Translations under genes and position numbers: made by a program
The notes under the pieces: generated by a model
What the model was told of the DNA's origin: nothing
Database searches by the model: none
The model's input: the letters and a program-made list of their open reading frames with translations, nothing else
Shown: positions 4,755 through 64,000 of the stretch, in pieces
Position numbering within the stretch: the stretch's first letter is position 1
Layout of the letters: each line of letters begins with the position of its first letter
Virus record (IMG/VR): IMGVR_UViG_3300026484_000394
Span: 33,198-97,197 of that record
Length of the DNA: 64,000 nucleotides
From: a virus
Reading direction: 5' to 3' (one strand)

Positions 4755-5021
4755 ATGTTAGAAGCATACAAAGAAGTGATTATTACAAGAAGACTTGGGA
4801 ACAGTAAAGAAAGTGAAATGGGGGCAGTAAGAACATCCTCTGAGAAAGCAGAATCCCTTAAAGTGGAAGTGCTAAGTTCAAATGTGCATATGGTAAATGC
4901 TGGAGACAAACTTTTGATTGCAAAATACTCCGGAACTGCAGTTACTTATAAGGGCGAGGATGTTGTGTTTATACGAGAAGAGGATATCTTAGCGTCAATT
5001 ATAGGAAGAGATGATGCATAG
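4755..5021 (+). CDS. groES: GroES-like co-chaperonin, 88 aa
   Basis: GroES heptamers cap the GroEL barrel. The C-terminal half matches the family well: AGDKLLIAKYSGTAV, then KGEDVVFIREEDILA, equivalent to the VGD-x-V-x-F-x-KYxGTEV and LLxxxDILA blocks of bacterial GroES. The segment ESEMGAVRTSS near residues 20-30 sits where the mobile GroEL-binding loop belongs. At 88 residues it is a little shorter than bacterial GroES (about 97). The start is ATG 4755, preceded by AAGGAG at 4744-4749; the same frame is open further upstream, but that part overlaps the tape-measure end without a ribosome site. It overlaps the groEL start by 11 nt, so the two are translationally coupled. The 85 nt gap before it is the largest in the first 11 kb and might hold a promoter, but I see no convincing one. 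Confidence 0.8.
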   Translation: MLEAYKEVIITRRLGNSKESEMGAVRTSSEKAESLKVEVLSSNVHMVNAGDKLLIAKYSGTAVTYKGEDVVFIREEDILASIIGRDDA

Positions 5022-16690: not shown

Positions 16691-16692
16691 TA

Positions 16693-17817
16693 ATGAATTT
16701 CAATCTTTCAAAAGAGCATCTTAAGATCAGTTTAGAGGGGGGAGATTTTTCTCTCCTTGTAGAAGACTTTTCTTGTGCTAGTGATACCAAACACAAGGTA
16801 TCTCAGAAGACGAAATGTACAATTGAGATAGAAGAGGAAGCAGCTTCTGATATTCGACAGATTTTTATTGACGGATTAGTGCAGAAAGCCAGTGGAGACA
16901 ATAGTTATATTTCTAAGCGAAAACTTCAAACACTGTTCTCGTCTCTTTTACCTATTGTCGAGTATAGTGATGCAGGGCTGATTGATATCTCTGATGAAAT
17001 CAAAGAGCAAATTGAGACTGCAACTAAAGATATTGAAATCAATACCAAGGTGTCTATAGAAGATAGTTCTTATTACCTAGATGCTAAGTATTGTATAGTA
17101 GCTGAGACAGAAGTAAAGAAAATAAACTTGTCTCTCAAGGCTATTACAAAAGACAATAATGAAGTAATTGAGGAGAACAGTCTTGTGAGTAGCCAGTTCA
17201 CACTAGCTCCATCAGATATACTTGATGAAGATGATGGGCTAACAGCGGACACAAGCATTGATTTGGAATATATTTTTAATCGAGTAGTTACGCTAACTGA
17301 AAGAAAAGACTTGAATGTAATAGAGACTTTTGGTAGGCTTTGGGAAAGAGACATTCAAGATATAGAAGACATCTTAGATATGTATGTTGAGTTATTCAAT
17401 AGTGCTTTCCAAAGTCTGACAGGAATTAAGTTTGAAGTCACTTCAAGATACCCTTTTGTTTCACACATATGTGGTATAAATCCTAATGTAAATGGGTTTA
17501 TGATAATTCCAATTAATCATACACAGATTTATATGAGCGGGTCAAGAGCAACAATACAAGCGAATGATACTGAGATGACTTATGTATCCGGAGATATTCA
17601 ATTTCCCTTCATCCCAGTAATAGGATCCGCAGAGAAAATGTTTGATATTTGTTCTGGTGAACCGGAATGGAGCAAGACGGGACCCCTTTGTAAAGAGTAT
17701 GTAGGGGAAAATATATCCGAGTTTGAAATAAATACAATGTTTAGCTGGGTAAATAGAACTTCGGCGGACACAAAGACTTATAGCTTATCTGCTCTGGGTC
17801 TAGATCATAAGGAATAA
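16693..17817 (+). CDS. Structural protein, 374 aa
   Basis: GGAAGG lies just before the preceding stop, followed by ATG 16693. The first 190 residues are acidic and beta-rich. A helical segment near 215-245 carries DIEDILDMYVELFN, and the last 130 residues are beta-rich with scattered cysteines (CGINPN, CSGEPEW, CKEY). I see no known motif. It belongs to the same run of coupled genes, with a 2 nt gap to the next. Confidence 0.65.
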   Translation: MNFNLSKEHLKISLEGGDFSLLVEDFSCASDTKHKVSQKTKCTIEIEEEAASDIRQIFIDGLVQKASGDNSYISKRKLQTLFSSLLPIVEYSDAGLIDISDEIKEQIETATKDIEINTKVSIEDSSYYLDAKYCIVAETEVKKINLSLKAITKDNNEVIEENSLVSSQFTLAPSDILDEDDGLTADTSIDLEYIFNRVVTLTERKDLNVIETFGRLWERDIQDIEDILDMYVELFNSAFQSLTGIKFEVTSRYPFVSHICGINPNVNGFMIIPINHTQIYMSGSRATIQANDTEMTYVSGDIQFPFIPVIGSAEKMFDICSGEPEWSKTGPLCKEYVGENISEFEINTMFSWVNRTSADTKTYSLSALGLDHKE

Positions 17818-39419: not shown

Positions 39420-40136
39420 ATGACTAAAATGATTTTTGATATGTCTAGAAAGCTAGAGGATGCACTAGATGGCGTTACAGGAGAAAATGCCATATACCTA
39501 TTGTCAAGTAACAGAAAGAATCTTCCTGCCATCTCTTTTAAAGCTGCCCTTATATTCTTTGGAGAGGACTTCTTCACTTTAGAAAATGAGACCGTACAGT
39601 TGGCTCTGTTGTCCGCAAAAGTACCACCAGAAAAAATAGAGAAAGTGATTGCACTAAAGTCTCTTCTCTCTAATTATGATGAAGCTCTTTCTCAAGCACA
39701 TCCATTTTCTTTGCTCGTAGAAGCTATGAACGATACAGAAACTCACACTTCTCTTTTACAGTTCCAATACTCTGAAAAGATTATCTGGGCACTGGTGTGC
39801 ATAATGGTCTTTGTAGGAGCAGAAAATATACCAACCACTAGAGATGCAACACGATACATAGTTGCCTGTTTAAAATCAGAAGGGTGGACAATGCCACCGT
39901 TAATGTTAGGAACTCAAAAATTCACAGACTACTTTGAATATTTCGATTCCAAAATCTATGAAGACCGAAGATGCTCTGAAAAATTCCTTTTATCCTTTTG
40001 TGCGAAAGAACATGGTGATGCAATGGAAGATAAAGGGAACTTTTATGAACACCATAAGCCAATTTTACTATACTTACACTCTAAAATAAATCAGACAGTT
40101 GGGGAGCTTGATATAAATGGTATTGAAGACAGATAA
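39420..40136 (+). CDS. Helical protein upstream of terminase, 238 aa
   Basis: Follows the previous stop without a gap (AAGGGA about 6 nt upstream) and overlaps the terminase start by 20 nt. Predicted almost all helical, with a hydrophobic helix near 120-132 (IIWALVCIMVFVG) and several cysteines late in the chain. Small terminase subunits often precede the large one, so this is a possible candidate, but no DNA-binding helix-turn-helix is evident. I leave the function open. Confidence 0.6.
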   Translation: MTKMIFDMSRKLEDALDGVTGENAIYLLSSNRKNLPAISFKAALIFFGEDFFTLENETVQLALLSAKVPPEKIEKVIALKSLLSNYDEALSQAHPFSLLVEAMNDTETHTSLLQFQYSEKIIWALVCIMVFVGAENIPTTRDATRYIVACLKSEGWTMPPLMLGTQKFTDYFEYFDSKIYEDRRCSEKFLLSFCAKEHGDAMEDKGNFYEHHKPILLYLHSKINQTVGELDINGIEDR

Positions 40137-41712
40137 AAGAATTGCAAAATTCATAGAAGACCGGGTGTATGTAGATAATATGAAATTAGACTTGAAGGCT
40201 TATGCAGCCTTTAAGCTTCCTTACGAACTTAATGAAAACAAGACTATGCTACTAGCTGGAAGACAGGTTGGAAAAACAGTATATCTCGGCACAAAGCTTG
40301 CCGTAAAGTCTCTATTGAAGCATCCGAACAGAGCACTATATGTGGCTCCTCTTGAATCTCACACCAAGTCATTCTCTAAAACAAAATTACAGAATGTTAT
40401 TGACTCTACTCCTGAACTAAAAGCTATTTTTACAGGTAAGGGAACACAGAGCGATGTATTCTTTAAGAAAAACATCTTGGGCGATTTTATTGAACTTACT
40501 TATGCATCTATGGGAGCAGAAGATCCAGTTCGTGTTCGTGGAAAGTCTGCGGATGATTTGTATATTGATGAAGCACAAGATGTTGATTATGATGTCCTTC
40601 CTGCGATAGAAGAGGTTACCACTTCTGCAAAGGCTCCAGTTATTACTTATGCAGGAACAGCTAAGAGCAAAGACAATACAACAGGTGTTATTTGGGACAA
40701 TTCAAATATGATGGAAAGAATTATCAAATGTACTTATTGTAAGAAATATAATATTATTGATAGAAGAAACATCTCTAAAAAAGGCTTAGTCTGTAACAAG
40801 ACAAATTGTCGTAAACCTTTGTACGTAGAGCATGGTGTTTGGGCTCAAACAGGTAGTGCAGATGCAATATACAAAGCTTTCCGTATTCCTCAAGTCGTGC
40901 TTCCGTATCACAACACAGAAGACAAGTGGAAAGAGATTTGGAGTAAGTATATGCAATATACTGAAACAAAATTTAATCAGGAAGTCCTTGGGATTCCAGC
41001 TGGGTCGGCAGACAGATTTCTTACTATTGAAAAATTGAAGAAGAAATGTACAGGTGGAAGAATGAGAGTAACCTGCGACCCCGAGTGGAGAAAGAATTAT
41101 CATGCAATGTTTATGGGTATAGATTGGACTGGTAATGGTGTATTAATGAAGTCTAGAACGGTCGCACTTATCATAGGGCATCGTAAAGATGGAGTGTTTG
41201 AAATGGTATGGGGTAAAATTTTCCCTCCTGGTGGGGTTAATGAGCAACCCAAAGAGTTGATTAATATGGCTCAATTGTTCCAATGTCAGATGGTAGGTGC
41301 GGATGCAGGAATGGGGATGATTCAAAATAAAGACATTATGGATGCTTTGGGAACAAACAGGTTTAAATCTATTCAGTATGTCGGTACTGCTGGGAACCCA
41401 TTCAAATTTCTCCCTGAGAATAACACAATTAATTTGCATAAAACGAAAGCTATTGATACTATTATGGGTATCTTCGTGGATAAATTTATGCCAAGAGTCT
41501 TAACTAAAGGGAGAACTCTTAATTTTATCTTCCCTGACTTTGATGATTGCCGCAATTTTTTAGAAGACATTCTTGCTGAACATGAAGAAGAAACAAGATC
41601 TGGGAATAAGATTTGGACACACGACCCAATGAAGCCAGATGACACACTACATGCTATTGTTTTCGCTATGTATGCCTATATGCATTACAAGCAAGCAGTA
41701 TCTTTCTATTAG
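40117..41712 (+). CDS. terL: Terminase large subunit (TerL), 531 aa
   Basis: DNA-packaging ATPase and headful/cos nuclease. Walker A is AGRQVGKT (47-54), Walker B with catalytic Glu is DDLYIDEAQD (146-155), and the coupling motif is ITYAGTAKS (176-184). The C-terminal RNase H-like nuclease shows its acidic residues in MGIDW (D336), GADAG (D396) and KPDDTLHA (D508/D509). Between the two domains is a four-Cys cluster, CTYC at 205-208 and C226/C231, likely to bind zinc. Start ATG 40117 lies within the upstream gene. The gene ends the long plus-strand operon; the head genes downstream have their own promoter. Confidence 0.93.
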   Translation: MVLKTDKRIAKFIEDRVYVDNMKLDLKAYAAFKLPYELNENKTMLLAGRQVGKTVYLGTKLAVKSLLKHPNRALYVAPLESHTKSFSKTKLQNVIDSTPELKAIFTGKGTQSDVFFKKNILGDFIELTYASMGAEDPVRVRGKSADDLYIDEAQDVDYDVLPAIEEVTTSAKAPVITYAGTAKSKDNTTGVIWDNSNMMERIIKCTYCKKYNIIDRRNISKKGLVCNKTNCRKPLYVEHGVWAQTGSADAIYKAFRIPQVVLPYHNTEDKWKEIWSKYMQYTETKFNQEVLGIPAGSADRFLTIEKLKKKCTGGRMRVTCDPEWRKNYHAMFMGIDWTGNGVLMKSRTVALIIGHRKDGVFEMVWGKIFPPGGVNEQPKELINMAQLFQCQMVGADAGMGMIQNKDIMDALGTNRFKSIQYVGTAGNPFKFLPENNTINLHKTKAIDTIMGIFVDKFMPRVLTKGRTLNFIFPDFDDCRNFLEDILAEHEEETRSGNKIWTHDPMKPDDTLHAIVFAMYAYMHYKQAVSFY

Positions 41713-42553: not shown

Positions 42554-43531
42554 ATGCAACCAGCACAGTCACAAACAGTAAGTTCACAGCAATTCGTTTC
42601 GAGAATGTTTCAAGATGATGGTTTTGTAAAAGAAGCTGCAGAGAAAATCTCTCTATTTATCCGAGATAAGATTCGTGAAAAAGGCTTTGTTAGAAAAGTT
42701 TTAAAGGTTTCTCCTGTATCTGCAAAAGATTTAGTTCCTACGGAGCATACAGACCAACCAGCAATTATGATAGAAAGAGATGTTGATGCTCGTGCAATGA
42801 CAGTTCCTCTTCGTGGTCGTGGTGAATTCAGATACCATGAAACAGACAGATATACTGTTTATTTCCAAAAAATTGTTTCTGAAAAAATCAGAAAATCAAA
42901 AATGGAAATGATGACAGTTAAAACTGACTACAAAAAACTTTTCCGTGATCGTATCTCTGAAGCAATGTTTCATGTTGAAGATATGACTATGATGGGTGGG
43001 GTTTCTAAAGTTCTTGCGGATGAAGAAGCTGAATTCAAAGCAGCAAATGGTGGAAATCTTTCTACTCAAGGGAATAAAAAATTCTCTGCTCAAACTGTTT
43101 ATTTTGACGAAGGGGAAACACTAGATAAATCTAATTTAGTTTTCTTATTCCAAATGCCTACTCGTAACCGTATCGCTAACAAAACTGTACTATTAACAGA
43201 GACTCTTATTCAAGAGTTAATGCATATGACTATGCAAGAAGTTGGTGACAGTGTTGTTTCTCAAATGTGGAAAGATGGAGTAGATAATATATCTGACTTC
43301 TGGAACAAGAAAATTGTTACTACAATTAAGTCTGACTTAGTTAAAAATAATGAGATTTATGCTTTTGCTCCAGAAGAAATGTATGGACACTTCTTTGTTC
43401 TTCAAGATCACACTTCTTACATCGAAGTTGACAGAGACATGATGACAATGGATAGTGAAGCTTATATTGCTCATGCAATTGGTAATACGAAAGGTGTGTA
43501 CAGAGGTGTGTTCTCTGGACTAGAAGAGTAA
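42554..43531 (+). CDS. Putative major capsid protein (HK97-type), 325 aa
   Basis: Size, position after terminase and decoration gene, and a strong upstream promoter fit the major capsid protein. The chain begins with a Gln/Ser-rich N-terminal arm and a helix (FVKEAAEKISLFIRDKIRE). An acidic middle follows, then a C-terminal part with alternating strands and helices that would fit P-domain and A-domain order. An N-terminal segment may be removed by a prohead protease, but none is recognised in this window. The pattern is HK97-like; this rests on context and outline rather than a named motif. Confidence 0.7.
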   Translation: MQPAQSQTVSSQQFVSRMFQDDGFVKEAAEKISLFIRDKIREKGFVRKVLKVSPVSAKDLVPTEHTDQPAIMIERDVDARAMTVPLRGRGEFRYHETDRYTVYFQKIVSEKIRKSKMEMMTVKTDYKKLFRDRISEAMFHVEDMTMMGGVSKVLADEEAEFKAANGGNLSTQGNKKFSAQTVYFDEGETLDKSNLVFLFQMPTRNRIANKTVLLTETLIQELMHMTMQEVGDSVVSQMWKDGVDNISDFWNKKIVTTIKSDLVKNNEIYAFAPEEMYGHFFVLQDHTSYIEVDRDMMTMDSEAYIAHAIGNTKGVYRGVFSGLEE

Positions 43532-45220: not shown

Positions 45221-45526
45221 ATGGCATTAGTACCTACATCAAAGCCTTCTGTAGATTCAGAGGGTTTACTTAAAGGTCTAGGAGTAAAAGTGAATGGGTC
45301 TGTGCAAGCAATGCACAAAAATGAACCTATTTTCGGAATAGGAAATCAGAATTTGCAAGGATATGTAGCCCTTAAAATGTATGAGCAACACACTGCCGAT
45401 GTAATAGATCAATCTGTTGCTGACAGTGGAGAGCGTGTACTTCAAGAAGGGCAATCATATAGCTCAGGCAAGCCGTATATCACACACAATAAAGTGTGGA
45501 TAGATGACATAGTAAGAGCCACTTAA
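45221..45526 (+). CDS. Small head-module protein, 101 aa
   Basis: Start ATG 45221 with AGGAGGG about 9 nt upstream; a longer frame from 45140 would overlap the previous gene and has no ribosome site. Beta-rich in the middle. The stop overlaps the start of the sigma-like gene (TAATG). No known family. Confidence 0.6.
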   Translation: MALVPTSKPSVDSEGLLKGLGVKVNGSVQAMHKNEPIFGIGNQNLQGYVALKMYEQHTADVIDQSVADSGERVLQEGQSYSSGKPYITHNKVWIDDIVRAT

Positions 45527-46134
45527 TGATTCGAGAGCATCAAAGTACAATAGACTACTTTAGGAGGGTGTATTCCAATGACATCCCTCCTGCTCAATTG
45601 GACTACAAATTATTCAAATACTCGCAAGAAGCTGCAAAGTCTTTTGACCCCAAGAAAAATGCATCATTTAAAACTCACCTATCTAATCACTTAGCTAAGC
45701 TAAAGAGAGATGTACATTCTTCTGGTTCAACAATCAAGACTGGAGAAGAAGTTGGTTACAGTATCCACCGAATTAAGAGAGCCAAAGATGAGTTTTACAT
45801 GGTACATGGCAGAGAACCTGAAAATGCAGAAATTGCAAAAGCTGTCAACCTGTCTGAGAAGATAGTGGGGAAGTATGACCGAATGTCGTCTATAAAAGCT
45901 GTTCGTTCAGACACAGCAGATAGGGGTTCTATGTCTGTAAAAATGAATGAACTGCTCCCTAACCTAAACAAAACGGACAAAGCTATAGTAAGAACGATTA
46001 CTGGTGATATGGGAGTGTCTGAGGCTTTGAAGCACACTGGATTAAGCAAGTCTTCATTCTATAGAAAAAGGGACTTATTATCTTCTGATATGAAAGAGTC
46101 ATATCTTAGAATGAGAGAAAAGAATACACAATGA
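45526..46134 (+). CDS. Sigma70-like factor, 202 aa
   Basis: Sigma factors direct RNA polymerase to promoters. Residues about 30-60 (AAKSFDPKKNASFKTHLSNHL) match the region 2.1-2.2 pattern of 'aa.kFDp.kg.kFsTya...i'. Residues about 76-115 match region 3.0/3.1 (RIKRAKDEFYMVHGREPENAEIAKAVNLSEKIV; compare 'GREPT.eEiAe.l.ls.ekv'). A helix-turn-helix at about 147-185 (DKAIVRTITG ... ALKHTGLSKSSFYRKRDLL) sits where region 4 belongs. Region 1 and much of region 2.3-2.4 are reduced. It is coupled to the genes on both sides (TAATG, ATGA). The phage RNA polymerase gene lies 1.6 kb away on the other strand, so this is a candidate specificity subunit for it; it might instead redirect host polymerase. Confidence 0.7.
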   Translation: MIREHQSTIDYFRRVYSNDIPPAQLDYKLFKYSQEAAKSFDPKKNASFKTHLSNHLAKLKRDVHSSGSTIKTGEEVGYSIHRIKRAKDEFYMVHGREPENAEIAKAVNLSEKIVGKYDRMSSIKAVRSDTADRGSMSVKMNELLPNLNKTDKAIVRTITGDMGVSEALKHTGLSKSSFYRKRDLLSSDMKESYLRMREKNTQ

Positions 46135-47374: not shown

Positions 47375-47785
47375 CTACTCTTGTAACCTAGCTTTTGGAA
47401 TAAGGCTACCCAGTCCATACTCTTGTATATATTTCTTCTTTTTTAATCCAGCTTTTTCTGTTTTCCATCTATGTTTTTGATTATCACTGCTAGTAACCCA
47501 CTCTAGGTTTGATTTACGGTGGTCACTTCTATCTGAGTTTTTATGATTCACTATTGGTAACCCTTCAGGATTATCTATAAAATGTGTTGCAGTTAAGCGA
47601 TGTATCTTTCTTTCAAACTTTCTACCATCTTTCATTAAGGTAACCTTTGGATACCCCATCCAGTTTCGACCACGAAGAGGTACCCCAGTTGCCTTAGAAC
47701 GGATGCCTTTGTTTGGATGTATCTCATATCTAGGGAAGTCATCTACCTCAACCCATCCACGAACACTAGCTCTTTCTATTGCCAT
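47375..47785 (-). CDS. NUMOD4/HNH homing endonuclease, 136 aa
   Basis: Free-standing DNA endonuclease of the type that spreads by homing. The N-terminus has the NUMOD4 pattern (RGWVEVDDFPRYEIHPNKGIR), and a HNH_3 core follows: H62 in IHRLTATHF, N80-H81 in VNHKN, and N93 in SNLEWV. I choose ATG 47785, seven bases after AAGGA, over the ATG at 47806 inside the polymerase frame. It overlaps the end of the RNA polymerase gene by 20 nt in a +1 frame, and its ribosome site lies in the last codons of that gene. Its insertion point is exactly where beta' homology stops, so it probably split the polymerase gene. Confidence 0.85.
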   Translation of the reverse strand: MAIERASVRGWVEVDDFPRYEIHPNKGIRSKATGVPLRGRNWMGYPKVTLMKDGRKFERKIHRLTATHFIDNPEGLPIVNHKNSDRSDHRKSNLEWVTSSDNQKHRWKTEKAGLKKKKYIQEYGLGSLIPKARLQE

Positions 47786-50700
47786 TTTTTTTCCTTGTTG
47801 TATCATAGAAACCGATAAATGGGTCTAGATCTATTCCCATCATCAAGTTATTTTTTTTAGCTGAATTCATCAGTTGCTTTGAGGCCATTATCTTAGTCTT
47901 CACATCCTGAATTGCTTTATGTCCAAAAGGAACATGAATACCAAGTTGGTCACCATCGTAATCGGCATTTTGACCGTCCTCAATTACTGCAGGAATATGC
48001 ATAACATTTCCTGAAGTCCTCGAAGCATAATGTCCCGTCATATTGTGTTTATGCAGAGAGGGTGCTCTATTTATTACAACAGGGATCTCTCTCATTGCAC
48101 TATCTAAAACTCGAGTAGCAGACTCATTTCTATTTTCTATCATCTTTTTTGATTCGTTTACTGGAATCCCCATTTGGGACATCTTTCTCACTACGTGAGG
48201 TTCATACATTGACCAAGCGACATTGTTTGGAAGTTCTATTTGGTCTATGCCCATGTTTTTTGTATGAGGGGCAATAACAGCTCTTCCTGAGCCAAACACT
48301 TTGTTTTTTAGTATTCTTTGATGCCAGAAAGATGTCTTTGGATTTTCTCCTGCCACAATATCCATAACACTCTTCAGTTCTTTTTTTTGACTCTTCTTGT
48401 TGGGAGATAGGTTTGTTCCATACATAGCACCTATATGCTCTTGCAGTTCTTTGTGTAACCCATTTACTATTTGAGCAGGAGCTTTAGCTTTTTTTGCCTC
48501 TTCAAGAGTATTTACAGAGTGTATGATGTTAGCATAATGCTCATTTACATCATGCTCAACTAAACTGCCGTTCGGAAGCTTTGTTGGGGGACGCATACTT
48601 GTAGGAAGAACAGGTATTTTTGATATAAACATTGTTTCTGATGGGCTTTGCTTTAAGCTATCTAGCTTCTTGATTGCTTTGATTGCTTTGATTGCTCTGT
48701 CTGCTTTTCCTACATCAGACGTATGTTTCACTTCTGATCGCAACTCTGCCAGCCTCTCGGTTGTATTAAGCTTACCTATCTTGTGGTACACTCCACTAAT
48801 TCCCTCGTGGTGAATATCTTTATCTAGTTCTGCTTCTGTCTTACCCAAGAGGCTTGCCACTGTCTTCTTGTAGAAAGGGTTAATTACTTTTTGCTTTAAA
48901 TCTATGTGTCCGTATTGACTTCCGTGTCCTCCAAAAATACGAGTATCGTAAAATCCTTTGTTTACGGGTTCCATTGTGTTTCTCTTCATCCCGTAAGGTT
49001 GGCTCACTCTCCCTATTGAAACTCTGGTTACATCCTTATCTGTCATTGGAATGGTATGAAGATGGTTGCCATCTGCATGAACTTTAATATTCATTTGCCC
49101 TAGAAGGCCATGAAATTTCTCTCTAGCAGATTTGGGCTCGGGAGGAGGAGGGATGTGCCCAGCCTCAAAAGCATTAAACCAATCCTTGTTTTCTTGAGAC
49201 TTCACACTTCCGACTTCTCTAAGAAAGTCTCTGGCGTTATGAGCAAGAAGAGCATTTATTTCCATGTTGGAAATTGAAGATGCAGATATCTTGCCACCTT
49301 TTTTTGGTTGTTTCATCCCATCTACTGGACCATGACCAATAGCCGAATAAGTGCCTTCCCCTTGCTTGAATAGCTTCAGGGTATTGTAATGTGCTACAAA
49401 CACTTTATCTTTGAGATGCTTCTTTCTTACTGGGTCGTATACCTTATGATATAGCTGCACACCATTTTTGTCTGCCTCTTGTTGAGCAAACTCAGATAAA
49501 TCATCGTTCGTATAATGAGGAAGTGAATATTTCTTTCCTGTCTTGTGTGCTACTTCTGTCAATGCTGCTTCGCTAATTTGAGCAGGATTTTGTCTTGAAG
49601 TTACCCCTGCTCCACCAAAAACTATATCCAGAGGTTTGCCTGTTTCATCAGTAGGCATCTCATGCATAGGTAATACACCTGAAATGATTCCCTTGTTCCC
49701 ACTTCGTCCAGCGACCTTATCTCCCTTTTTGAGTGGAGATTTATAGGTGGCTGTAATATGATAATTGTTGCCTCTCTTTTCTCTTGTTCTGATTACACCC
49801 GTCTCTTGTGTTTTCCACTTTGACATCTCAGGAGCATATCCACCATAAAGCAGTTTTTTTACCTTATCATTTTCAAAACGAACTTCACTAGGGTCCATTT
49901 TCCTAAATCCAAGAGTAATAGGCTCATCTTTACTAGCGGCTTCCCCTTCATTCATGATTCCGTGTGCATCATACTTGGACATATCAATTTTCTTAGCTAT
50001 CTCCGGAAACAGAGAAGCGAACTTCTGCTTGCTGTATTCCGTTCCAGTAGAGGCATCCGTTTTGAATCTAACACCATGTAGTGATGTCATCTTCTTAGCA
50101 GCATCTTCAGATACAATAAATGCATCATTCCTTGTTCCTGGAAACATCATCCAAGCAGCTCGAAGGTTTTTACCTAAAGCAAGCTCACCATCCTTGGTGA
50201 AATTTGAATCCACCAGAGCTTGACCTTTTTTTATCTTATCTCCAGCTTTTACTATTGGATAATGATCTATATATGTTTTTGTATTAAGTCTTAGTTTATC
50301 TTTTGCATAGTCTTGAGTTTGCTTAGTTCCGGCACTATCAGTATAATGAATTAGTCCATTCTTCTCATCTACTTTTGTCACTGTTCCGGAAGTATCAGCT
50401 GTCACTAAGTGGTGTTTAGCTAATTCTGCCGACATATTTCCATTCTTGCCCTGAAGCCGAACAGGATTGACATCTCTTTTTGCAAGAGGGAGGGCTTGAA
50501 GCACATGTTTTGAAGCCATCAGGCTTCTAGTAGGGTCGTTTGAGCTAATCATCCCTAGTGAGTTCATTGCAGGGCCATACATGTCTTCTGCATGAATCAG
50601 CTGATAGTCGGCACTTTTCAATCTTCCAACTTGAATATCATTCTTGTGTCTTATTCCCACACTTCCCTTGTGGTCATCAGGAAAGGCAATTTTCTTGTCC

Positions 50701-52007
50701 CAAAGATCCCCGACTGTCTTAACGGTTTCCTTCCCCGTCTTTACATCTCTCACCATTAAAGCAGGATTTCCAAATTTATCTATGTGGGCTCCGTGAGTTA
50801 GACTGAGAGTAATTCCCGTATTCGCCCCTTCAGGAGATTTGATAGGGTCGATAAATCCTAATTGAGATGAATGTAGAGAGCGAACTGACGGAGTAATCAT
50901 TTCTGACGACGAGATGCCGCCTTCTCCAACAGGAGTAATTTCCATATTTCCTTGCGTAGTCTGCAATGGATTGTATTCTTCAGGCATTCTTGATATAGCT
51001 GCCGTAGTCATAAAGCCTTTAGCTGCTTTTTCTAAAGTAGGCTCTTTCAGAGCATCGAACACCTGCACCTTAAATGGATTATTTAGGGCACCTTTCATCT
51101 TCATTTCAGATTTTTTAAGTTCAGTGTTAACTCCCTCTGCCAGAAGCTTTTGAGGAGTCATTATTTTCTTGAACATTAAGTTCTCTTTATCATCCTCTTC
51201 AGCCCCTTTTTTTACAGCCACATTTCGAGCAATACCGAGCAAGATAGTTTTCTTGTTCACTGTATTCAAAGGAGTACCCAAAGTGTGCTTTGTCACAGAG
51301 GGATCAAGTTTTGTTTGAGAGAAGTATTCTTGAATATGTTTTTCTACCTCTGACTGAGGAGGAGTGACATCTTTTCCTATTAGACCAAGTGTGTTGGCCA
51401 GCTTCAGAGAAGTTGCACGAACATTAGACTTAGAAGATAAGTGATTGAACAGTTGGTCTCCCAGAATGCCCTTAGATTCTTTCTCTGAAGCACCCAAGAT
51501 AGTTGCAATATCCACGGCATTGAACTGCTTCCCTCCAAGAATCACATTGACATCATTCTTGCCAGTAGGAGAAACTATTTTCATACCTCTTCCATTCTCT
51601 GCATTCATCATAGTCTCAACATCACCGTTGGCTTTATTTTGAGTGTAGGCTCCAGACTTAAGCCTAATCTGGTGTGGAAGATTGTAAGTATTTCCCTGAA
51701 TAAGAAAGCCACCTTTCCTAGTATATACAGGCACAGTTCCTAGAGATACTTTTCTCTCTTTAGAAATCACTTTCTTGCTCTTATTATCTATTACAGCTAC
51801 ATCTGCTAAATACTTCTGAGAAAGGGTTCCTCCCGAATCTATAAGTTTACTTAGTCTCTTGTATGTGTGATTTACGGGAAGTGTTCTAACATTGGAATAT
51901 TTAAGAGTCTTATATTTTCCTACAACTTCTCGTCCTTCATAGACAGATGTTATTTCGTCCTGAATTCTCTTGTTTGCCTCTTTTGTTCCTGTCTGTAATT
52001 TTTGCAT
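47766..52007 (-). CDS. Fused RNA polymerase beta / N-terminal beta' subunit, 1413 aa
   Basis: DNA-dependent RNA polymerase, multisubunit type. Beta part, residues 1 to about 960: VSLGTVPVYTRKGGFLIQG (87-105); a rifampicin-region equivalent (346-364); FIDPIKSPEGANTGI (385-399); GELALGKNLRAAWM (607-620); KKGDKVAGRSGNKGIIS (760-776), with K764 and K772 equal to E. coli K1065 and K1073; and NMEINALLAH near 914. Beta' part, about 985-1413: GFYDTRIFGG (1018-1027), YGHIDL without the zinc ribbon that normally precedes it, IPVLPTSMRP (1131-1140), NRAPSLHKHN (1313-1322) and catalytic NADYDGD (1347-1353). It ends soon after LDPFIGFYDTTR (1394-1405), equal to about residue 515 of E. coli beta'. Bridge helix and trigger loop are absent. 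ATG 52007 follows AAGGGGA by 7 nt. Confidence 0.92.
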   Translation of the reverse strand: MQKLQTGTKEANKRIQDEITSVYEGREVVGKYKTLKYSNVRTLPVNHTYKRLSKLIDSGGTLSQKYLADVAVIDNKSKKVISKERKVSLGTVPVYTRKGGFLIQGNTYNLPHQIRLKSGAYTQNKANGDVETMMNAENGRGMKIVSPTGKNDVNVILGGKQFNAVDIATILGASEKESKGILGDQLFNHLSSKSNVRATSLKLANTLGLIGKDVTPPQSEVEKHIQEYFSQTKLDPSVTKHTLGTPLNTVNKKTILLGIARNVAVKKGAEEDDKENLMFKKIMTPQKLLAEGVNTELKKSEMKMKGALNNPFKVQVFDALKEPTLEKAAKGFMTTAAISRMPEEYNPLQTTQGNMEITPVGEGGISSSEMITPSVRSLHSSQLGFIDPIKSPEGANTGITLSLTHGAHIDKFGNPALMVRDVKTGKETVKTVGDLWDKKIAFPDDHKGSVGIRHKNDIQVGRLKSADYQLIHAEDMYGPAMNSLGMISSNDPTRSLMASKHVLQALPLAKRDVNPVRLQGKNGNMSAELAKHHLVTADTSGTVTKVDEKNGLIHYTDSAGTKQTQDYAKDKLRLNTKTYIDHYPIVKAGDKIKKGQALVDSNFTKDGELALGKNLRAAWMMFPGTRNDAFIVSEDAAKKMTSLHGVRFKTDASTGTEYSKQKFASLFPEIAKKIDMSKYDAHGIMNEGEAASKDEPITLGFRKMDPSEVRFENDKVKKLLYGGYAPEMSKWKTQETGVIRTREKRGNNYHITATYKSPLKKGDKVAGRSGNKGIISGVLPMHEMPTDETGKPLDIVFGGAGVTSRQNPAQISEAALTEVAHKTGKKYSLPHYTNDDLSEFAQQEADKNGVQLYHKVYDPVRKKHLKDKVFVAHYNTLKLFKQGEGTYSAIGHGPVDGMKQPKKGGKISASSISNMEINALLAHNARDFLREVGSVKSQENKDWFNAFEAGHIPPPPEPKSAREKFHGLLGQMNIKVHADGNHLHTIPMTDKDVTRVSIGRVSQPYGMKRNTMEPVNKGFYDTRIFGGHGSQYGHIDLKQKVINPFYKKTVASLLGKTEAELDKDIHHEGISGVYHKIGKLNTTERLAELRSEVKHTSDVGKADRAIKAIKAIKKLDSLKQSPSETMFISKIPVLPTSMRPPTKLPNGSLVEHDVNEHYANIIHSVNTLEEAKKAKAPAQIVNGLHKELQEHIGAMYGTNLSPNKKSQKKELKSVMDIVAGENPKTSFWHQRILKNKVFGSGRAVIAPHTKNMGIDQIELPNNVAWSMYEPHVVRKMSQMGIPVNESKKMIENRNESATRVLDSAMREIPVVINRAPSLHKHNMTGHYASRTSGNVMHIPAVIEDGQNADYDGDQLGIHVPFGHKAIQDVKTKIMASKQLMNSAKKNNLMMGIDLDPFIGFYDTTRKKNGNRKS

Positions 52008-52011
52008 CTGA

Positions 52012-52566
52012 CTATCCCCTTGTAGTAGTTTGAGTTTGGACACCACTCGTAGTGGTAACTGAATATCCGGTGTATGGTGGCTTCGGTGTTATCACACTAT
52101 CTTCTGACTCCACTAGGAGCTCTTCTTCACTAGAAGATCTCCCAATAGCGTCTGCGTAATCTTTGGTTTCATTCATTTCATATTTCACAGCTACAATTGC
52201 TTTTACTACAGGAGAAGAGGTCGGATGTGATATTGTTCTTGTTCTTACTTTAGAACCTGATCTATGAAAAGAGTTAACTTTAACATTATCTATCATATTT
52301 ACGACATCTACATCAGGCGGAATGAAGCTTGGAGCATGAGAGATAGCTTCTGAGTGCTCCACAAAGAACTTAGTCATACCAGACAGCTGAGTGCTTGACA
52401 TTCCAGTAATAACTCCATTCTCCTGTGGCACAAAACCACCCCTTTCGTCAACAACAGTTATACGACTCTCTATCCACCCAAAATTAAGCCGATGAATTTC
52501 AAAAGACATATCCATTCTCTCGGCAGAAATTGGATCAACATTGACTGTTTCTCTAATTACGGCCAT
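52012..52566 (-). CDS. Hypothetical structural-region protein, 184 aa
   Basis: Overlaps the preceding gene by 14 nt and its stop lies 4 nt before the polymerase start; its last codons carry the polymerase ribosome site. Beta-rich first half; a flexible Ser/Thr/Glu-rich tail (SSSEEELLVESED, then TTTSGVQTQTTT). No family recognised. The disordered tail and company of a connector-like protein suggest a minor virion protein. Confidence 0.6.
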   Translation of the reverse strand: MAVIRETVNVDPISAERMDMSFEIHRLNFGWIESRITVVDERGGFVPQENGVITGMSSTQLSGMTKFFVEHSEAISHAPSFIPPDVDVVNMIDNVKVNSFHRSGSKVRTRTISHPTSSPVVKAIVAVKYEMNETKDYADAIGRSSSEEELLVESEDSVITPKPPYTGYSVTTTSGVQTQTTTRG

Positions 52567-59460: not shown

Positions 59461-60453
59461 TTAATTTTCACTCTTCTTAGGCAAAACTTCCGTTAAAGCC
59501 TTTTTAATCTCTTTTGCAATAGCAGTGATTACCGGAACAGTTACTGAATTGCCTATCTGTTTATACAAATGAGAGTTAGCTAAATCTTCACTCAATATAA
59601 AAGTATCGTCATATCCTTGAAATCTTGCACATTCTCTCGGTGTAAGTTTTCGTATATCTTTCTTATCAATAATCAGAGGCACATTATGACCACCTGTACC
59701 CATATTTGCAGTTAAAGTAGGGCAAAGCTTACTTTTATTTTCTCTAACATATTTTCTTCTCCATTGATATACTGTGTCATTATTTTTCATTTCATCTTTT
59801 AACTGAGTATAATATCTGCTATTTGTATAATAGAATCTCTCGTCAGCTTCGTCATCAATTAGATCGTTAATTGTTTTTGTTAGTTTTTTTGGTTTTGGAA
59901 AATCAAATCTATCACATACTTTCTTATCTTTGAAACCTACGATATAGATTCTCTCTCTGTTTTGTGGCACATTTGAATACTCAGCAGTATTTAATACTTT
60001 ATAATTCAAATAATAACCACGACTTTCAAGCTCATCTTTGATAATCTCAAATGTTCTGCCCTTGTCGTGACCAATTAGATTTTTCACATTTTCCAAAAAT
60101 AGTATTTCAGGTTCTAAATCATCAATAAATCTTAATATCTCAAAGAATACATGACCTCTATCATCATTGAAACCTTTTCTATATCCTGCTACAGAAAATG
60201 CTTGACAAGGGAAGCCACCAGTTAAAATATTTATCTTACCGACTTCATCTGTTCGCAAGTCTTTTAAATCTTTTTCATATAATTTATGCTTGTGGTTTTT
60301 TCTATATGTGATAGCTGCTTTACTATCTATTTCATTTGCCCATGATATACTAAACCCTGCTTTTTTAAAACCTAACTCAATGCCGCCAATCCCTGCGAAT
60401 AACCCACCAATTTTGTAGTCTTTAGCTGTTATTTTTTTCATAGGAGCAGTCAT
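59461..60453 (-). CDS. dcm: DNA (cytosine-5)-methyltransferase, 330 aa
   Basis: Transfers a methyl group from SAM to cytosine C5. Family motifs in order: I GLFAGIGGIELGF (17-29), IV GGFPCQAFSVAG with catalytic C83 (79-90), VI ENVKN (121-125), VIII QNRERIYIVG (164-173), IX LTPRECARFQGY (270-281) and X IGNSVTVPVI (300-309). The target-recognition stretch between VIII and IX is short. No partner restriction enzyme is recognisable, so it is an orphan, probably protecting phage DNA from host restriction. The ATG follows the previous stop directly. Confidence 0.93.
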   Translation of the reverse strand: MTAPMKKITAKDYKIGGLFAGIGGIELGFKKAGFSISWANEIDSKAAITYRKNHKHKLYEKDLKDLRTDEVGKINILTGGFPCQAFSVAGYRKGFNDDRGHVFFEILRFIDDLEPEILFLENVKNLIGHDKGRTFEIIKDELESRGYYLNYKVLNTAEYSNVPQNRERIYIVGFKDKKVCDRFDFPKPKKLTKTINDLIDDEADERFYYTNSRYYTQLKDEMKNNDTVYQWRRKYVRENKSKLCPTLTANMGTGGHNVPLIIDKKDIRKLTPRECARFQGYDDTFILSEDLANSHLYKQIGNSVTVPVITAIAKEIKKALTEVLPKKSEN

Positions 60454-60969
60454 TTACTTATCTCGAGAAGAAGGTGTGTTCCCCGATTCCATAGAATTCA
60501 CATCTTCCAAAAAGCTTGCGCTATTTACAAAATGCGCACCTTCAAAAAAGTTTTCACTATCTATAACTAGTTTATATTTCACACTAACTTGTATGTTCGT
60601 ATTGATATAAGCACGAAGTTGGGATCTGTGTATACGTATAGCTGCTGGTATCCCTTTTTTGCACCTACATTTTCTTCTCCTCCAATAACTGTTAAGCATG
60701 CAATCTCGGTCAGAAATAATTATTATGTAAATAGCGGCTTCTGAATTGGAATGGAAGAGTTCATGCTTCTTGCATTTCTGAGGGGAATAACGATAATAAT
60801 ACCAACCACCGTGATAAAAGCAACGATGTATAAAAGGAGTATAAGGACAAGGAAAAGCAGCCTCAAGCTCTTCTAACTTACTTTTAGGGAACATTAGATG
60901 TCTCCCCGGAAATCCTACTTTGTTATAAGCAGGATTTACATGCCATATCTTTGGTGCTACTGGTTTCAT
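60454..60969 (-). CDS. Cys- and Tyr-rich hypothetical protein, 171 aa
   Basis: Starts in a TAATG overlap with the portal stop and ends directly before the methyltransferase start, so it is co-translated. It is basic and rich in Cys, His, Tyr and Arg in the middle (HRCFYHGGWYYYRYSPQKCKKHE, then RRRKCRCKKG), suggesting zinc and nucleic-acid binding. No family recognised. The base use is similar to the neighbours. Confidence 0.55.
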   Translation of the reverse strand: MKPVAPKIWHVNPAYNKVGFPGRHLMFPKSKLEELEAAFPCPYTPFIHRCFYHGGWYYYRYSPQKCKKHELFHSNSEAAIYIIIISDRDCMLNSYWRRRKCRCKKGIPAAIRIHRSQLRAYINTNIQVSVKYKLVIDSENFFEGAHFVNSASFLEDVNSMESGNTPSSRDK

Positions 60970-62756
60970 TATTGTTGTCCTTGCTGTTGAGCCTGTTGTG
61001 CTGCTTGAGTAGCATCTTTCCTGCCATTAAATTCCATGCGTTCTTTAGTGGCAACATATAGTAGCCAGTTCTCTTTTTGTAGTCTATCCATCTCTGACTT
61101 GCGTTGACCAGCTTCCATCTGAGATAATTGTTGAGCCATTTGATCAGCTTCCTGCATAATAGCTTGTTGATTAACTTGCTGAGTAGAGCTTTGTGAAAGC
61201 ATTGCTTCCGTTTTCGCTTTCTCTTCAAGATTTTGAGAAAGATTTGTTGTAAATTCTTGTATCTCAATTTGTCTCTTAGCATTCTCTTTCGCCTCTGCTG
61301 TCATTCTTGTTTGTTCTGAAGTGGCGTTCATAGTGAAGTAAGCACCCATTGTATGGTCAGATATTTTACCTGATTGAAATAACTGCAGAAGAATTTGCTT
61401 CTCAGAGATATCATCTACTATTCTAAATGGTGTTATTTTAATAGGTATTGCTTTTTTCTTTCTCATCACAGCTACTTTCTTGACAGTAAAGTTAGCAATC
61501 TTTTCCATTGAGGTAGTTAAATTCATTAACTGATTCTCTAGTACCCTGATAGATGCTCCAGCTGCATTGTACCCAAGGCCACCTTTTACAAATTCTACGG
61601 GAACACCGATACTATTCATAGCCATCACTGACACTTCGTCAATCTCTTTTGCTAGGTTAAGTGTCTTCCCTTCTCCAAATGCAGTCATCGTGTCAAGAGG
61701 AATAGGAAAATATTTAATTGAGGTTGGATCATTCTTATGTTGTGTAAGTAGAGTCTCAACTCTCTTGTTTACATCAGAACCTGACATATAGTTATACATA
61801 GGGTTCCCATCTGCCCCTGAAGTTCTTGGAACTAAACCTCTGAAAGGAAAAATCATATCACTAAGAATTTTTTCTTGGCTCTTTCTGAGCAGCAACAGAG
61901 AGATCATCTCTGGAATAGCTGAAGTAAGAATAGGCATTCCCCATCCTGAGTTAACTCCAATCATTTTTTTTCTTCTTAAGTGCAGTATCTTATCATTATC
62001 AAAGAAGACCATCGTATTCTCAACTGCTGACTGAATTAAGTCAATCGGCTGTGAAAACAACATACTTAAGAATCCATCTGTGATCATCTTTCTCTTGCTG
62101 TTTGGCATCTTGTAATAGAATGAACTTTTCCCTGTAATATCGTCAGTTATAATATTCATATTTTGCCCTGGCCAATTCACTACATTTATCCCAGAGATAT
62201 CATTTACTGGTATGTCTGCATGAGTAAAAATTGTATCTGCACTACAGTCAGGACAAACACCTTTAAATACAAGAGTTTTCTTTCTAGTTTTCTTTTTCCC
62301 TTTCCCAGTTGAAATTTCTTCCATAGATGGTTTAAGTTTACTATTATCATTAAATTGTCTCTCGTGAAGTATCTTTTGGCACGAAAGGCAAGTCATAGTT
62401 CTCTTGATTGGAGTGTATACAGACACGAAAAGATTTCCATACAATAAATAAGTGAAAGCAAGCTCTTTCAAGATATCTTTCATATCTAGCTCATCTTCTA
62501 ATATTGACTTCCATGACTTCTCATCACTTGGACTTACCTCCGATAGATCATCAGTAACATATTGAAATGTTGTAATTGATACAGATGACATTTTTTCTAA
62601 TGCACTGGCCACAACTGGGACATTAGCATTAATAAACTCTGACCATTGGAAAATCTCTTTAATATCATTAGGTAATATGTCTGCGTAGACACTACTTAAA
62701 TTATTATATCTCCCCATAAACTTTCTGTTATACATTTTTCCATTAAAAGTGTTCAT
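60969..62756 (-). CDS. Portal protein with zinc-ribbon insertion, 595 aa
   Basis: The portal dodecamer forms the DNA gate at one capsid vertex. Length, the helical Met/Gln-rich C-terminal tail (about 490-595) and the stretches GNLFVSVYTP near 107, GWGMPILTSAIPEMISLLLLRKSQEKIL and GVPVEFVKGGLGYNAAGASIRV fit phage portal architecture. CLSC (123-126) and CPDC (168-171) with a basic loop between them form a likely zinc ribbon within the wing region. I take ATG 62756 as start; a TTG frame from 62783 would overlap the upstream gene. The stop overlaps the next start (TAATG). Confidence 0.8.
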   Translation of the reverse strand: MNTFNGKMYNRKFMGRYNNLSSVYADILPNDIKEIFQWSEFINANVPVVASALEKMSSVSITTFQYVTDDLSEVSPSDEKSWKSILEDELDMKDILKELAFTYLLYGNLFVSVYTPIKRTMTCLSCQKILHERQFNDNSKLKPSMEEISTGKGKKKTRKKTLVFKGVCPDCSADTIFTHADIPVNDISGINVVNWPGQNMNIITDDITGKSSFYYKMPNSKRKMITDGFLSMLFSQPIDLIQSAVENTMVFFDNDKILHLRRKKMIGVNSGWGMPILTSAIPEMISLLLLRKSQEKILSDMIFPFRGLVPRTSGADGNPMYNYMSGSDVNKRVETLLTQHKNDPTSIKYFPIPLDTMTAFGEGKTLNLAKEIDEVSVMAMNSIGVPVEFVKGGLGYNAAGASIRVLENQLMNLTTSMEKIANFTVKKVAVMRKKKAIPIKITPFRIVDDISEKQILLQLFQSGKISDHTMGAYFTMNATSEQTRMTAEAKENAKRQIEIQEFTTNLSQNLEEKAKTEAMLSQSSTQQVNQQAIMQEADQMAQQLSQMEAGQRKSEMDRLQKENWLLYVATKERMEFNGRKDATQAAQQAQQQGQQ

Positions 62757-62757
62757 A

Positions 62758-63507
62758 TTATTTTGTAGCCTCTTTATATTCAATTGCTTCTACATCCACA
62801 TATTCTTCAAGCTCTCTGTTAAAGACTGGCATCTCTATCTCTGCTGCTGGTTCTATTGTATTAAGTGATTTAATAGCTGAAACAATACCATCTATTGAAC
62901 TGGTATTTGTTCCTGCTGTTCTAGCACTTTTTTCTACTATAGTCATTATGTCTTTTGCCGCGGCAAGTCGAACACGGTTATCTTCCATCGTGCCGTCTCG
63001 TCGTGCATTTCGAGTATCCCAAATTGCTTGTTGAGCTATCAGTGTCTTTTTCTCTTCCATATCATCGACATCTATATTGATATCAAATTGTTCTAGAATG
63101 ATACTTGTTCCACCATAGCGTGCTTCTCGTAAAATCTTACCGAAATTATACTCTTCTGAGTCTTCGTTATACATTAATAGGTCTTCCACATATTCTGTGA
63201 ACCCGATAGACCCTCTTAGCTTATCAGTATCAAAGAAGATAGCTTTGTACGCCGCTAAGGTTTCCTCTGCCATTCCTGTATGTTTAGCTATAAAAGAAAA
63301 GTCTGCTTCTGCAAAAAGCAATGTTTCTACAAAAGCTTTTCTTACCTTGCGACCATATATATACATTACTTCTTTTGCCTCAGAAGAATATGTAGTAAGA
63401 ATTCTTCTCTTTACAGCACTGATATTGACAGCTAATTCCAAATGCTCATCACTTTTGGGTTCTGTATCTATCTCCCAACTCCTGTCAAATACTGTTAAGT
63501 TGTCCAT
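62758..63507 (-). CDS. Helix-turn-helix-like packaging-region protein, 249 aa
   Basis: Mostly helical. Residues about 68-92 (EADFSFIAKHTGMAEETLAAYKAIFFD) look like a helix-turn-helix followed by the 'aYe.iFFD' phrase known in phage DNA-binding proteins of small-terminase type. Acidic C-terminal end. It lies immediately before the portal gene, so a small terminase or packaging regulator is possible although the large subunit is 20 kb away on the other strand. AAAGGTG precedes the ATG. Confidence 0.55.
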   Translation of the reverse strand: MDNLTVFDRSWEIDTEPKSDEHLELAVNISAVKRRILTTYSSEAKEVMYIYGRKVRKAFVETLLFAEADFSFIAKHTGMAEETLAAYKAIFFDTDKLRGSIGFTEYVEDLLMYNEDSEEYNFGKILREARYGGTSIILEQFDINIDVDDMEEKKTLIAQQAIWDTRNARRDGTMEDNRVRLAAAKDIMTIVEKSARTAGTNTSSIDGIVSAIKSLNTIEPAAEIEMPVFNRELEEYVDVEAIEYKEATK

Positions 63508-63516
63508 GACACACCT

Positions 63517-64000
63517 TTAGCTAATTAAAGATGTATCAATCGTAAAGTCTGTCATTCTGTTTAGCAGAGTCTTTCCTCTATTTATAAAGCTATCCAGTTG
63601 TTTCTCCCCAACTTGATCTGCAAATGTTGATCTCTGTATCTCTATCATAAGCAGTGTTCTAGCTAATCCGTTAACCCCTTTATCTATATCGTCTAAGTAT
63701 TCTGTAATTACCGCTTTTGCATCCGATGAATCTACTAAATACGAAAGAATACTAGCATTCAGAACATCTTTATCTGCTATTGACTGCAGTTGAGTTAACA
63801 TCTCAGGAGACATGTTTGTGTTATACCCCTGTTGCTGTAGGTTTGCTTGCGTTTGTGCTTGAGCATTCGGGTCTTGCTGTGCTTGAGCATTCGGGTCTTG
63901 CTGGGCTTGAGCATTCGGGTCTTGCTGGGCTTGTGCATTCGGGTCTTGCTGGGCTTGTGCATTCGGGTCTTGCTGGGCCTGTGCATTCGGGTCTTGCTGG
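63517..64000 (-). CDS. Gln-rich protein with QQDPNAQA repeats (5' end outside window)
   Basis: The frame is open from the right edge down to the stop at 63517, so a start at the internal ATG 63813 is not needed. The visible N-terminal side consists of six tandem copies of an 8-residue unit QQDPNAQA, followed by a short Gln-rich linker. A helical domain of about 100 residues follows (MSPEMLTQLQSIADKD and on), ending in a stop 9 nt before the next gene. The repeats are probably disordered. It is the first visible gene of the portal operon; the function is unknown. Confidence 0.7.
   Translation of the reverse strand, partial: QQDPNAQAQQDPNAQAQQDPNAQAQQDPNAQAQQDPNAQAQQDPNAQAQTQANLQQQGYNTNMSPEMLTQLQSIADKDVLNASILSYLVDSSDAKAVITEYLDDIDKGVNGLARTLLMIEIQRSTFADQVGEKQLDSFINRGKTLLNRMTDFTIDTSLIS
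63864..64000 (-). repeat. Six tandem 24-bp coding repeats
   Basis: Copies begin at 63864, 63888, 63912, 63936, 63960 and 63984, the last cut by the window end. Units differ only at a few third positions. They encode QQDPNAQA in the gene above. The array may continue to the right. Confidence 0.9.

Follow-up and report, generated by a model that had tools for sequence, protein, structure and literature searches.

A stretch of 64,000 nucleotides from a virus (IMG/VR record IMGVR_UViG_3300026484_000394), which we call the window and which comprises bases 33198–97197 of a linear contig of 97,197 bp, carries motifs of both large subunits of RNA polymerase (RNAP), β and β', in a single reading frame that stops shortly after the catalytic loop of β'. 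Where is the remainder of β' encoded, how could an enzyme divided in this way work, and how did it arise? We find that this is an RNAP of two proteins, divided differently from the enzyme of any cell: β is fused to the N-terminal part of β' (β'N), and the C-terminal part (β'C) is the product of a separate gene. We consider it likely that the fusion is the larger of the two core subunits of a phage RNAP that lacks α, is packaged and injected, and goes back to a single-chain ancestor that was split once.

A preliminary description of the window had placed the β motifs ahead of the β' motifs in one frame of 1413 residues, without naming a strand. The gene lies on the minus strand (contig positions 80963–85204), and all motifs can be located in it: SPEGANTG at residues 391–398, GDKVAGRSGNKG at 762–773, NRAPSLHKHN at 1313–1322 and NADYDGD at 1347–1353. 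Its ATG follows the preceding gene at a distance of 4 bp, with AAGGGGAT upstream of it; an alternative GTG start would extend the frame to position 52046 (47766..52046). The Pfam matches follow the same order of β, then β', with RNA_pol_Rpb2_3 (3e-10), Rpb2_6 (3e-31), Rpb1_1 (1.6e-16) and Rpb1_2 (3.5e-14), and since all four exceed the cut-off in this order, they are not due to chance. Residues were mapped in a multiple alignment of the fusion, its relatives and Salmonella RpoB and RpoC, whose numbering is the same as in E. coli. The β part is complete and retains the equivalents of K1065, K1073 and R1106 as K764, K772 and R805; it is joined to β' by about five residues without a linker domain. 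The β' part tracks RpoC up to residue ~523, close to the end near ~515 given earlier, apart from the first zinc ribbon, which had been described as missing and whose residues (RpoC 67–99) are indeed skipped in the alignment. A ColabFold model of residues 330–1413 is ordered across the junction (mean predicted local distance difference test score, pLDDT, 84; predicted template modelling score 0.73), which it places within an ordered hairpin and helix, in blocks with a pLDDT of about 88–90, and it matches bacterial RNAP β by fold with an E-value of about 1e-45.

The missing half of β' is encoded outside the window by a gene of 581 residues on the plus strand (contig 15018–16763), that is, on the opposite strand of the same 97-kb contig and ~64 kb away from the fusion gene. 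The bridge helix and trigger loop had been expected to come from such an unlinked gene, and its product aligns with RpoC from residue ~573 to the C-terminus and carries both, together with the second zinc ribbon; the equivalents of C814, C888, C895 and C898 and of the trigger-loop residue H936 are kept in the alignment. In a separate model of the β'C of a close relative (pLDDT 85), the bridge helix is 36 residues long (169–204), the trigger loop consists of two helices (around 291–334), and the fold matches that of bacterial β'. The only Rpb1_5 match on the contig (15510–16022) falls within this gene, and a complete separate β' was found nowhere else on the contig. Pfam, the alignment and the separate gene therefore agree with the idea of one fused junction, between β and β', and one split junction, after the double-psi β-barrel (DPBB) of β'. 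Taken together, the two genes account for all of β' apart from three segments: the first zinc ribbon, a stretch of ~50 residues at the split, and the large insertion that enterobacteria have in the trigger loop. Each of 11 records scanned with a β'C profile holds exactly one full-length β'C, and each of 14 scanned with a fusion profile holds one fusion gene.

Is the end of the fusion native, or has a full β' been interrupted here through misassembly, a frameshift, recoding or an insertion? There are reasons to ask, as an open reading frame (ORF) resembling an HNH homing endonuclease overlaps the final codons of the fusion gene, as mobile elements (group I introns and inteins) are active in this family, and as TAG stops were read through by the profile search in some relatives. 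However, five close relatives from other metagenomes (51–63% identical over the chain) share the fusion and end at the same point, 59–65 residues past DYDGD, without an HNH ORF, and the sequence beyond the stop is random or non-homologous in the window copy and in all relatives inspected. The end is hence native. The HNH ORF was found in the window copy only, among those inspected, and is accordingly a later insertion rather than the cause of the split. Stop-codon recoding can be dismissed as well, because the post-stop sequence is non-homologous and TAA, TAG and TGA all serve as fusion-gene stops among the relatives. No Rfam match to a group I intron lies between the two halves in this contig. 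Furthermore, β'C is an intact gene with its own start. An artefactual end is therefore already contradicted, and we give it a negligible chance.

With regard to the function, we propose that the clamp, the active-site barrel and the catalytic Mg loop would be provided, together with β, in one chain, to which β'C would add the bridge helix, the trigger loop, the second zinc ribbon and the C-terminal part in trans, so that the two proteins would form one complete active centre. Homologues of α were absent from all 11 records searched, with a positive control in 13 of 14 cellular genomes; a search for T7-type RNAP (PF00940) was uninformative, as its control gave no match. Promoter recognition would probably fall to a small σ-like protein of the phage, homologues of which occur in 10 of 14 related records.

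The closest described counterpart is Salmonella phage Arash (OQ632216; PMC10585845), in which gp206 is the same β-β'N fusion (92% of the query covered), gp216 is a separate β'C and gp10 is the σ protein. In both phages, the portal gene lies upstream of the fusion gene, and the terminase large subunit (8e-56), the major capsid protein (4e-37), the portal protein (4e-54) and the head protease gene (2e-46) are homologous, as are the σ-like and both RNAP genes. The two fusions are only 28% identical, however; the β'N of Arash has ~30 more residues at its end, and its β'C gene lies on the strand of the fusion gene, 4.8 kb further downstream, compared with 64 kb and the other strand here. The authors label gp206 merely as ‘beta subunit’ and do not mention the fusion (PMC10585845).

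The published analysis of Arash particles bears on where the enzyme acts. No other protein yielded as many spectra as Gp206 (3516, with 128 unique peptides and 100% coverage), which exceeded the major capsid protein; Gp216 was among the top proteins (1210 spectra), and the σ protein Gp10 was represented by 467 (PMC10585845). The full coverage shows that translation extends over the entire fused frame, although it does not prove that there is one intact chain. By analogy with Arash, the only phage for which both subunits and the σ-like protein have been reported in particles, the enzyme of the window is probably a virion RNAP, which would be packaged, injected with the DNA and used to transcribe early genes without the host RNAP. 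The abundance of Gp206 might equally suit a catalytically dead, merely structural head component, but the catalytic aspartates, the three β residues named above, H936 of β' and the zinc cysteines of β'C are all conserved here, and DxDGD is retained in all split forms whose loop was read; we regard such a role as very improbable. More serious is the idea that the enzyme is made during infection to transcribe middle or late genes and that the host RNAP reads the early ones. The proteomic data come from Arash, not from this phage, the RNAP in those particles could stem from the lysate, and the single RNAP set that we find gives no sign of a division of labour between a virion and a non-virion enzyme. 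Yet the spectral counts in Arash speak for packaging, as does the gene order, with the RNAP genes among structural genes in Arash and the fusion gene here following the portal gene on the same strand. On balance, we think a non-virion enzyme rather unlikely.

Several points weigh against the view of a packaged, two-subunit enzyme with a single-chain ancestor. Its virion location would be carried over from a homolog of 28% identity over the chain. The Arash particle list comprises 116 proteins, including ribonucleotide reductases (PMC10585845), so that carry-over from the lysate is possible, as its authors state. The σ match is weak as well as short (4e-7 in Pfam and 9e-7 to the Arash homologue), and 4 of the 14 records, among them two short fragments, lack the σ-like gene. 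The contig is a 97-kb fragment of a genome of probably ~165–190 kb, which leaves room for a second, more divergent RNAP; this contig and ten relatives of 157–194 kb each yielded one RNAP set, a count that a very divergent second set could escape. Finally, in the trees discussed below, the bacterial rooting joins long branches, and the root is not certain.

How, then, does this enzyme relate to other phage polymerases? The preliminary description had set it beside phiKZ- and AR9-type phages, in which β and β' are split into separate genes. Like the enzyme of the window, the phiKZ- and AR9-type RNAPs are encoded by the phage, lack α and have their β' split after the DPBB (PMC7598289). They differ, however, in that their β is in two or three pieces and separate from β', whereas here β is whole and fused to β'N, and in that such phages have two enzymes and no σ (PMC7598289, PMC7824862), compared with the one enzyme and the σ-like gene found here. 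As judged from sequence comparisons, the window enzyme belongs to a separate, more bacteria-like clade of phage RNAPs, whose deepest members are single-chain, and is not a phiKZ- or AR9-type enzyme in which one junction was fused anew.

In Helicobacter-type bacteria, the fused chain is understood to contain a complete β', including the zinc ribbon, within a cellular enzyme that has α. The chain in the window, by contrast, extends only to RpoC ~523, without the first zinc ribbon. What it has in common with the Helicobacter and Wolinella rpoB-rpoC fusions (cited in PMC3294249) is that the C-terminus of β is joined to the N-terminus of β'. The single-chain RNAPs of crAss-like phages, P23-45 and YonO likewise combine both catalytic barrels in one polypeptide (PMC10770324, PMC7481178), but they are complete in one chain and too divergent for cellular RNAP profiles, whereas the window protein is plainly similar to bacterial RNAP and has its bridge helix and trigger loop in a separate β'C. 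Both the Helicobacter-type fusions and the crAss-type single chains are thus parallels rather than kin.

A closer relationship may exist to the mReC phages (Weinheimer and Aylward, 2020; PMC7481178), which may belong to the same broad lineage as the window phage. Their RNAP, like the one described here, can be aligned to cellular RNAP and has the NADxDGD motif; the terminase large subunit of the window matches the mReC family PF03237 above the cut-off (3.6e-7), with a better score for PF05876. Two mReC representatives come from metagenome 3300017989 (PMC7481178), as does one of the single-chain loci described below (L122). On the other hand, the major capsid protein of the window has no Pfam match at an E-value of 0.01 and hence none to the mReC marker PF07068, and the mReC paper treats β and β' as two subunits and mentions a fusion for crAssphage only (PMC7481178). 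Membership in this group is therefore unproven.

To determine how widespread the fusion is, we searched cultured phages with tblastn, which identified it in Arash and in Vibrio phages D69, D148 and D181 (OZ195729, OZ196545, OZ196140), each with a separate β'C as in the window phage. In the three Vibrio phages, it differs in lying ~0.6 kb downstream, and the proteins are annotated as hypothetical. For a wider survey, IMG/VR was scanned with profiles, and domains were assigned at every locus; alignment-based profiles were needed, since a scan of viral contigs with a single protein as query returned no relatives. Bacterial and archaeal genomes were searched as well, and no relative was found in them. 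Including the cultured phages, the survey yielded 86 distinct β-β'N fusion proteins, 29 single-chain β-β'N-β'C proteins (~2040–2240 residues without inteins) plus one that is cut at a contig end, 15 three-piece forms, in which no more than the first ~100 residues of β' are attached to β and a further gene encodes the middle of β', and six proteins that join just the C-terminal half of β to the start of β'. The retrieved flanks contain β'C for 60 of the 86 fusions, and in every one of these it follows the fusion gene on the same strand at a distance of 0.5–5.5 kb; in the subclade of the window phage, it has been relocated by tens of kilobases. The split point is nearly constant, at 91–95 residues past DYDGD in most proteins and 59–65 in this subclade.

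The preliminary description knew of no described phage with this arrangement. Its presence in Arash, in D69, D148 and D181 and in dozens of IMG/VR contigs shows that described phages do have it; what stands is that it appears to have gone unremarked, as no account of a β-β'N fusion was found in the literature searched, which covers subscription journals little, so that a description elsewhere is possible.

For the evolutionary analysis, we calculated two bacteria-rooted trees, one with FastTree from 97 rows and one with IQ-TREE under a mixture model from 52 rows and 1837 columns, both without cyanobacterial rows and the six split-β forms. Two records filed as phage, L108 (AGRM01000005) and L114 (CAKLQF020000005), represent bacterial rpoBC beside ribosomal genes and served only as outgroups, as did the Efs, LM and SA ‘phage’ records, which are probably bacterial too. 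(Locus L193, also from a record filed as phage, is probably a plain bacterial rpoB/rpoC region.) In both trees, all two- and three-piece forms constitute one clade (Shimodaira–Hasegawa-like support, SH-like, 99; SH approximate likelihood-ratio test, SH-aLRT, 100). Nested within it, the three-piece forms are a single clade; the single-chain forms branch outside the clade of split forms, and two of them occupy the deepest positions. The architectural states require only two changes among the phage rows of the bacteria-rooted tree. This suggests a history in which a single-chain ancestor was split after the catalytic barrel and then underwent one further split; as the deepest members are single-chain, the fusion probably predates the split. 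The architecture in the window is thus most likely that of a single-chain β-β' ancestor split once, after the DPBB of β'.

Alternatively, the split could have been inherited from a polymerase like that of cyanobacteria, whose β' is divided at the same position, after the DPBB, into RpoC1 and RpoC2, with the fusion of β and β' following later. Indeed, β'C begins where RpoC2 does (profile positions 27–31 align to residues 8–15 of RpoC2 chains), the best match in the PDB, by sequence and by fold, is a cyanobacterial β, and the same shared split has been noted for phiKZ-type enzymes (PMC7598289). However, cyanobacterial β is short and without large insertions, which may favour long matches whatever the kinship, and both bacteria-rooted trees place the single chains deepest and unite the split forms. 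We therefore find an inherited split quite unlikely, and prefer a single-chain origin.

A bolder, tentative extension is that, in a large lineage of phages, a virion RNAP that began as one chain was dismantled stepwise to three pieces, with β also split in some jumbo phages; we hold this to be possible rather than probable. If true, the stepwise series would link single-chain enzymes with the many-piece phiKZ-type enzymes, whose fragmentation would then be derived and not, as has been proposed, a relic of pre-cellular subunits (PMC7824862). Seven loci (L175, L176, L177, L179, L180, L182, L183) encode the C-terminal half of β with the first ~70 β' profile positions, with no N-terminal β found nearby; it is possible that they are intermediates towards the phiKZ-type virion RNAPs.

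What emerges here is a widespread and seemingly unremarked phage RNAP architecture with a cultured representative, Arash on Salmonella, whose enzyme can be purified and tested. As a two-protein enzyme that lacks α and can be aligned residue by residue to bacterial RNAP, it offers a tractable minimal model of the universal polymerase fold, and a model for the assembly of an active centre in trans and for the carriage and injection of a large enzyme by virions. The series of fused and split forms, in turn, allows trees to test the origin of the fragmented polymerases of jumbo phages.

Many of the relatives carry inserts in their RNAP. An inorganic pyrophosphatase domain (PF18823, E-value down to 7e-34) lies in frame inside β, near RpoB ~750, in L049 (11576–11965) and also in L045, L046, L051, L052, L057, L060, L065 and L067, which represent several independent contigs; it could remove pyrophosphate, a by-product of the enzyme that carries it. 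The same site is occupied by a GNAT acetyltransferase in L061 (11630–11961) and L178 (2893–3165) and by an insert without an assigned family in L053. β also carries a 2H phosphoesterase-like insert with a weak HAD/PNKP-like match in two loci (L144:5026–5943, L140:6676–7611), and in L182 (9497–10921) the middle subunit of β' has a NUDIX domain as its N-terminus.

Inteins or intein-like inserts, which were only partly checked one by one, occur in the catalytic loop of β' (L023, L025, L032, L034, L137, L167, L168) and elsewhere in the RNAP (L039, L041, L062, L067, L083, L159, L167, L168, L180–L183); they sit at conserved motifs, including directly after the catalytic DYDGD, and several contain LAGLIDADG. 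In L141 (5956–13351), the reading frame shifts after an insert in the catalytic loop, and an overlapping ORF carries the end of β'N together with β'C, which may reflect a split intein or a sequencing error. Vibrio phage D181 has two group I introns (L006:3538–3745 and 7335–7615), each beside a homing endonuclease gene, one in the β part of the fusion gene and the other in a neighbouring gene near the portal position.

Table 1. Features of the RNAP locus and neighbouring genes, in window coordinates
Feature	Position	Strand	Details	Basis
RNAP fusion gene, β and N-terminal part of β'	47766..52007	minus	1413 aa, ATG start, TAG stop	
β part	49065..52007	minus	residues 1–981; ends at RpoB ~1342 (complete β)	Pfam and alignment
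β/β' junction	49053..49064	minus	residues 982–985	alignment and model
N-terminal part of β'	47769..49052	minus	residues 986–1413 (RpoC ~22–523)	Pfam and alignment
Deletion site of the N-terminal zinc ribbon of β' (RpoC ~67–99)	48918..48926	minus	residues 1028–1030	alignment
Catalytic loop NADYDGD	47949..47969	minus	residues 1347–1353 (RpoC D460, D462, D464)	alignment
HNH homing-endonuclease-like ORF	47375..47806	minus	overlaps 3' end of the RNAP gene	sequence comparison
Small σ70-like protein	45526..46134	plus	202 aa; homologue of Arash gp10	Pfam and Arash match
Portal protein	60969..62783	minus	precedes the RNAP gene on the same strand, an order shared with Arash	Arash homology (gp204)
Terminase large subunit	40117..41712	plus	homologue of Arash gp1	Arash homology
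Major capsid protein	42554..43531	plus	homologue of Arash gp226	Arash homology

Elsewhere in the window, a GroEL-like chaperonin is encoded at 5011–6417 on the plus strand (Cpn60_TCP1 5e-21; phrog groEL 3e-51). An ORF on the minus strand (59461–60453) displays the motifs FAGIGG and GGFPCQAFS of cytosine-C5 DNA methyltransferases, as seen by eye. At 63795–63999, also on the minus strand, an array of tandem QDPNAQAQ repeats is truncated by the end of the contig; the conserved part of this repeat protein matches the Arash structural protein gp218.

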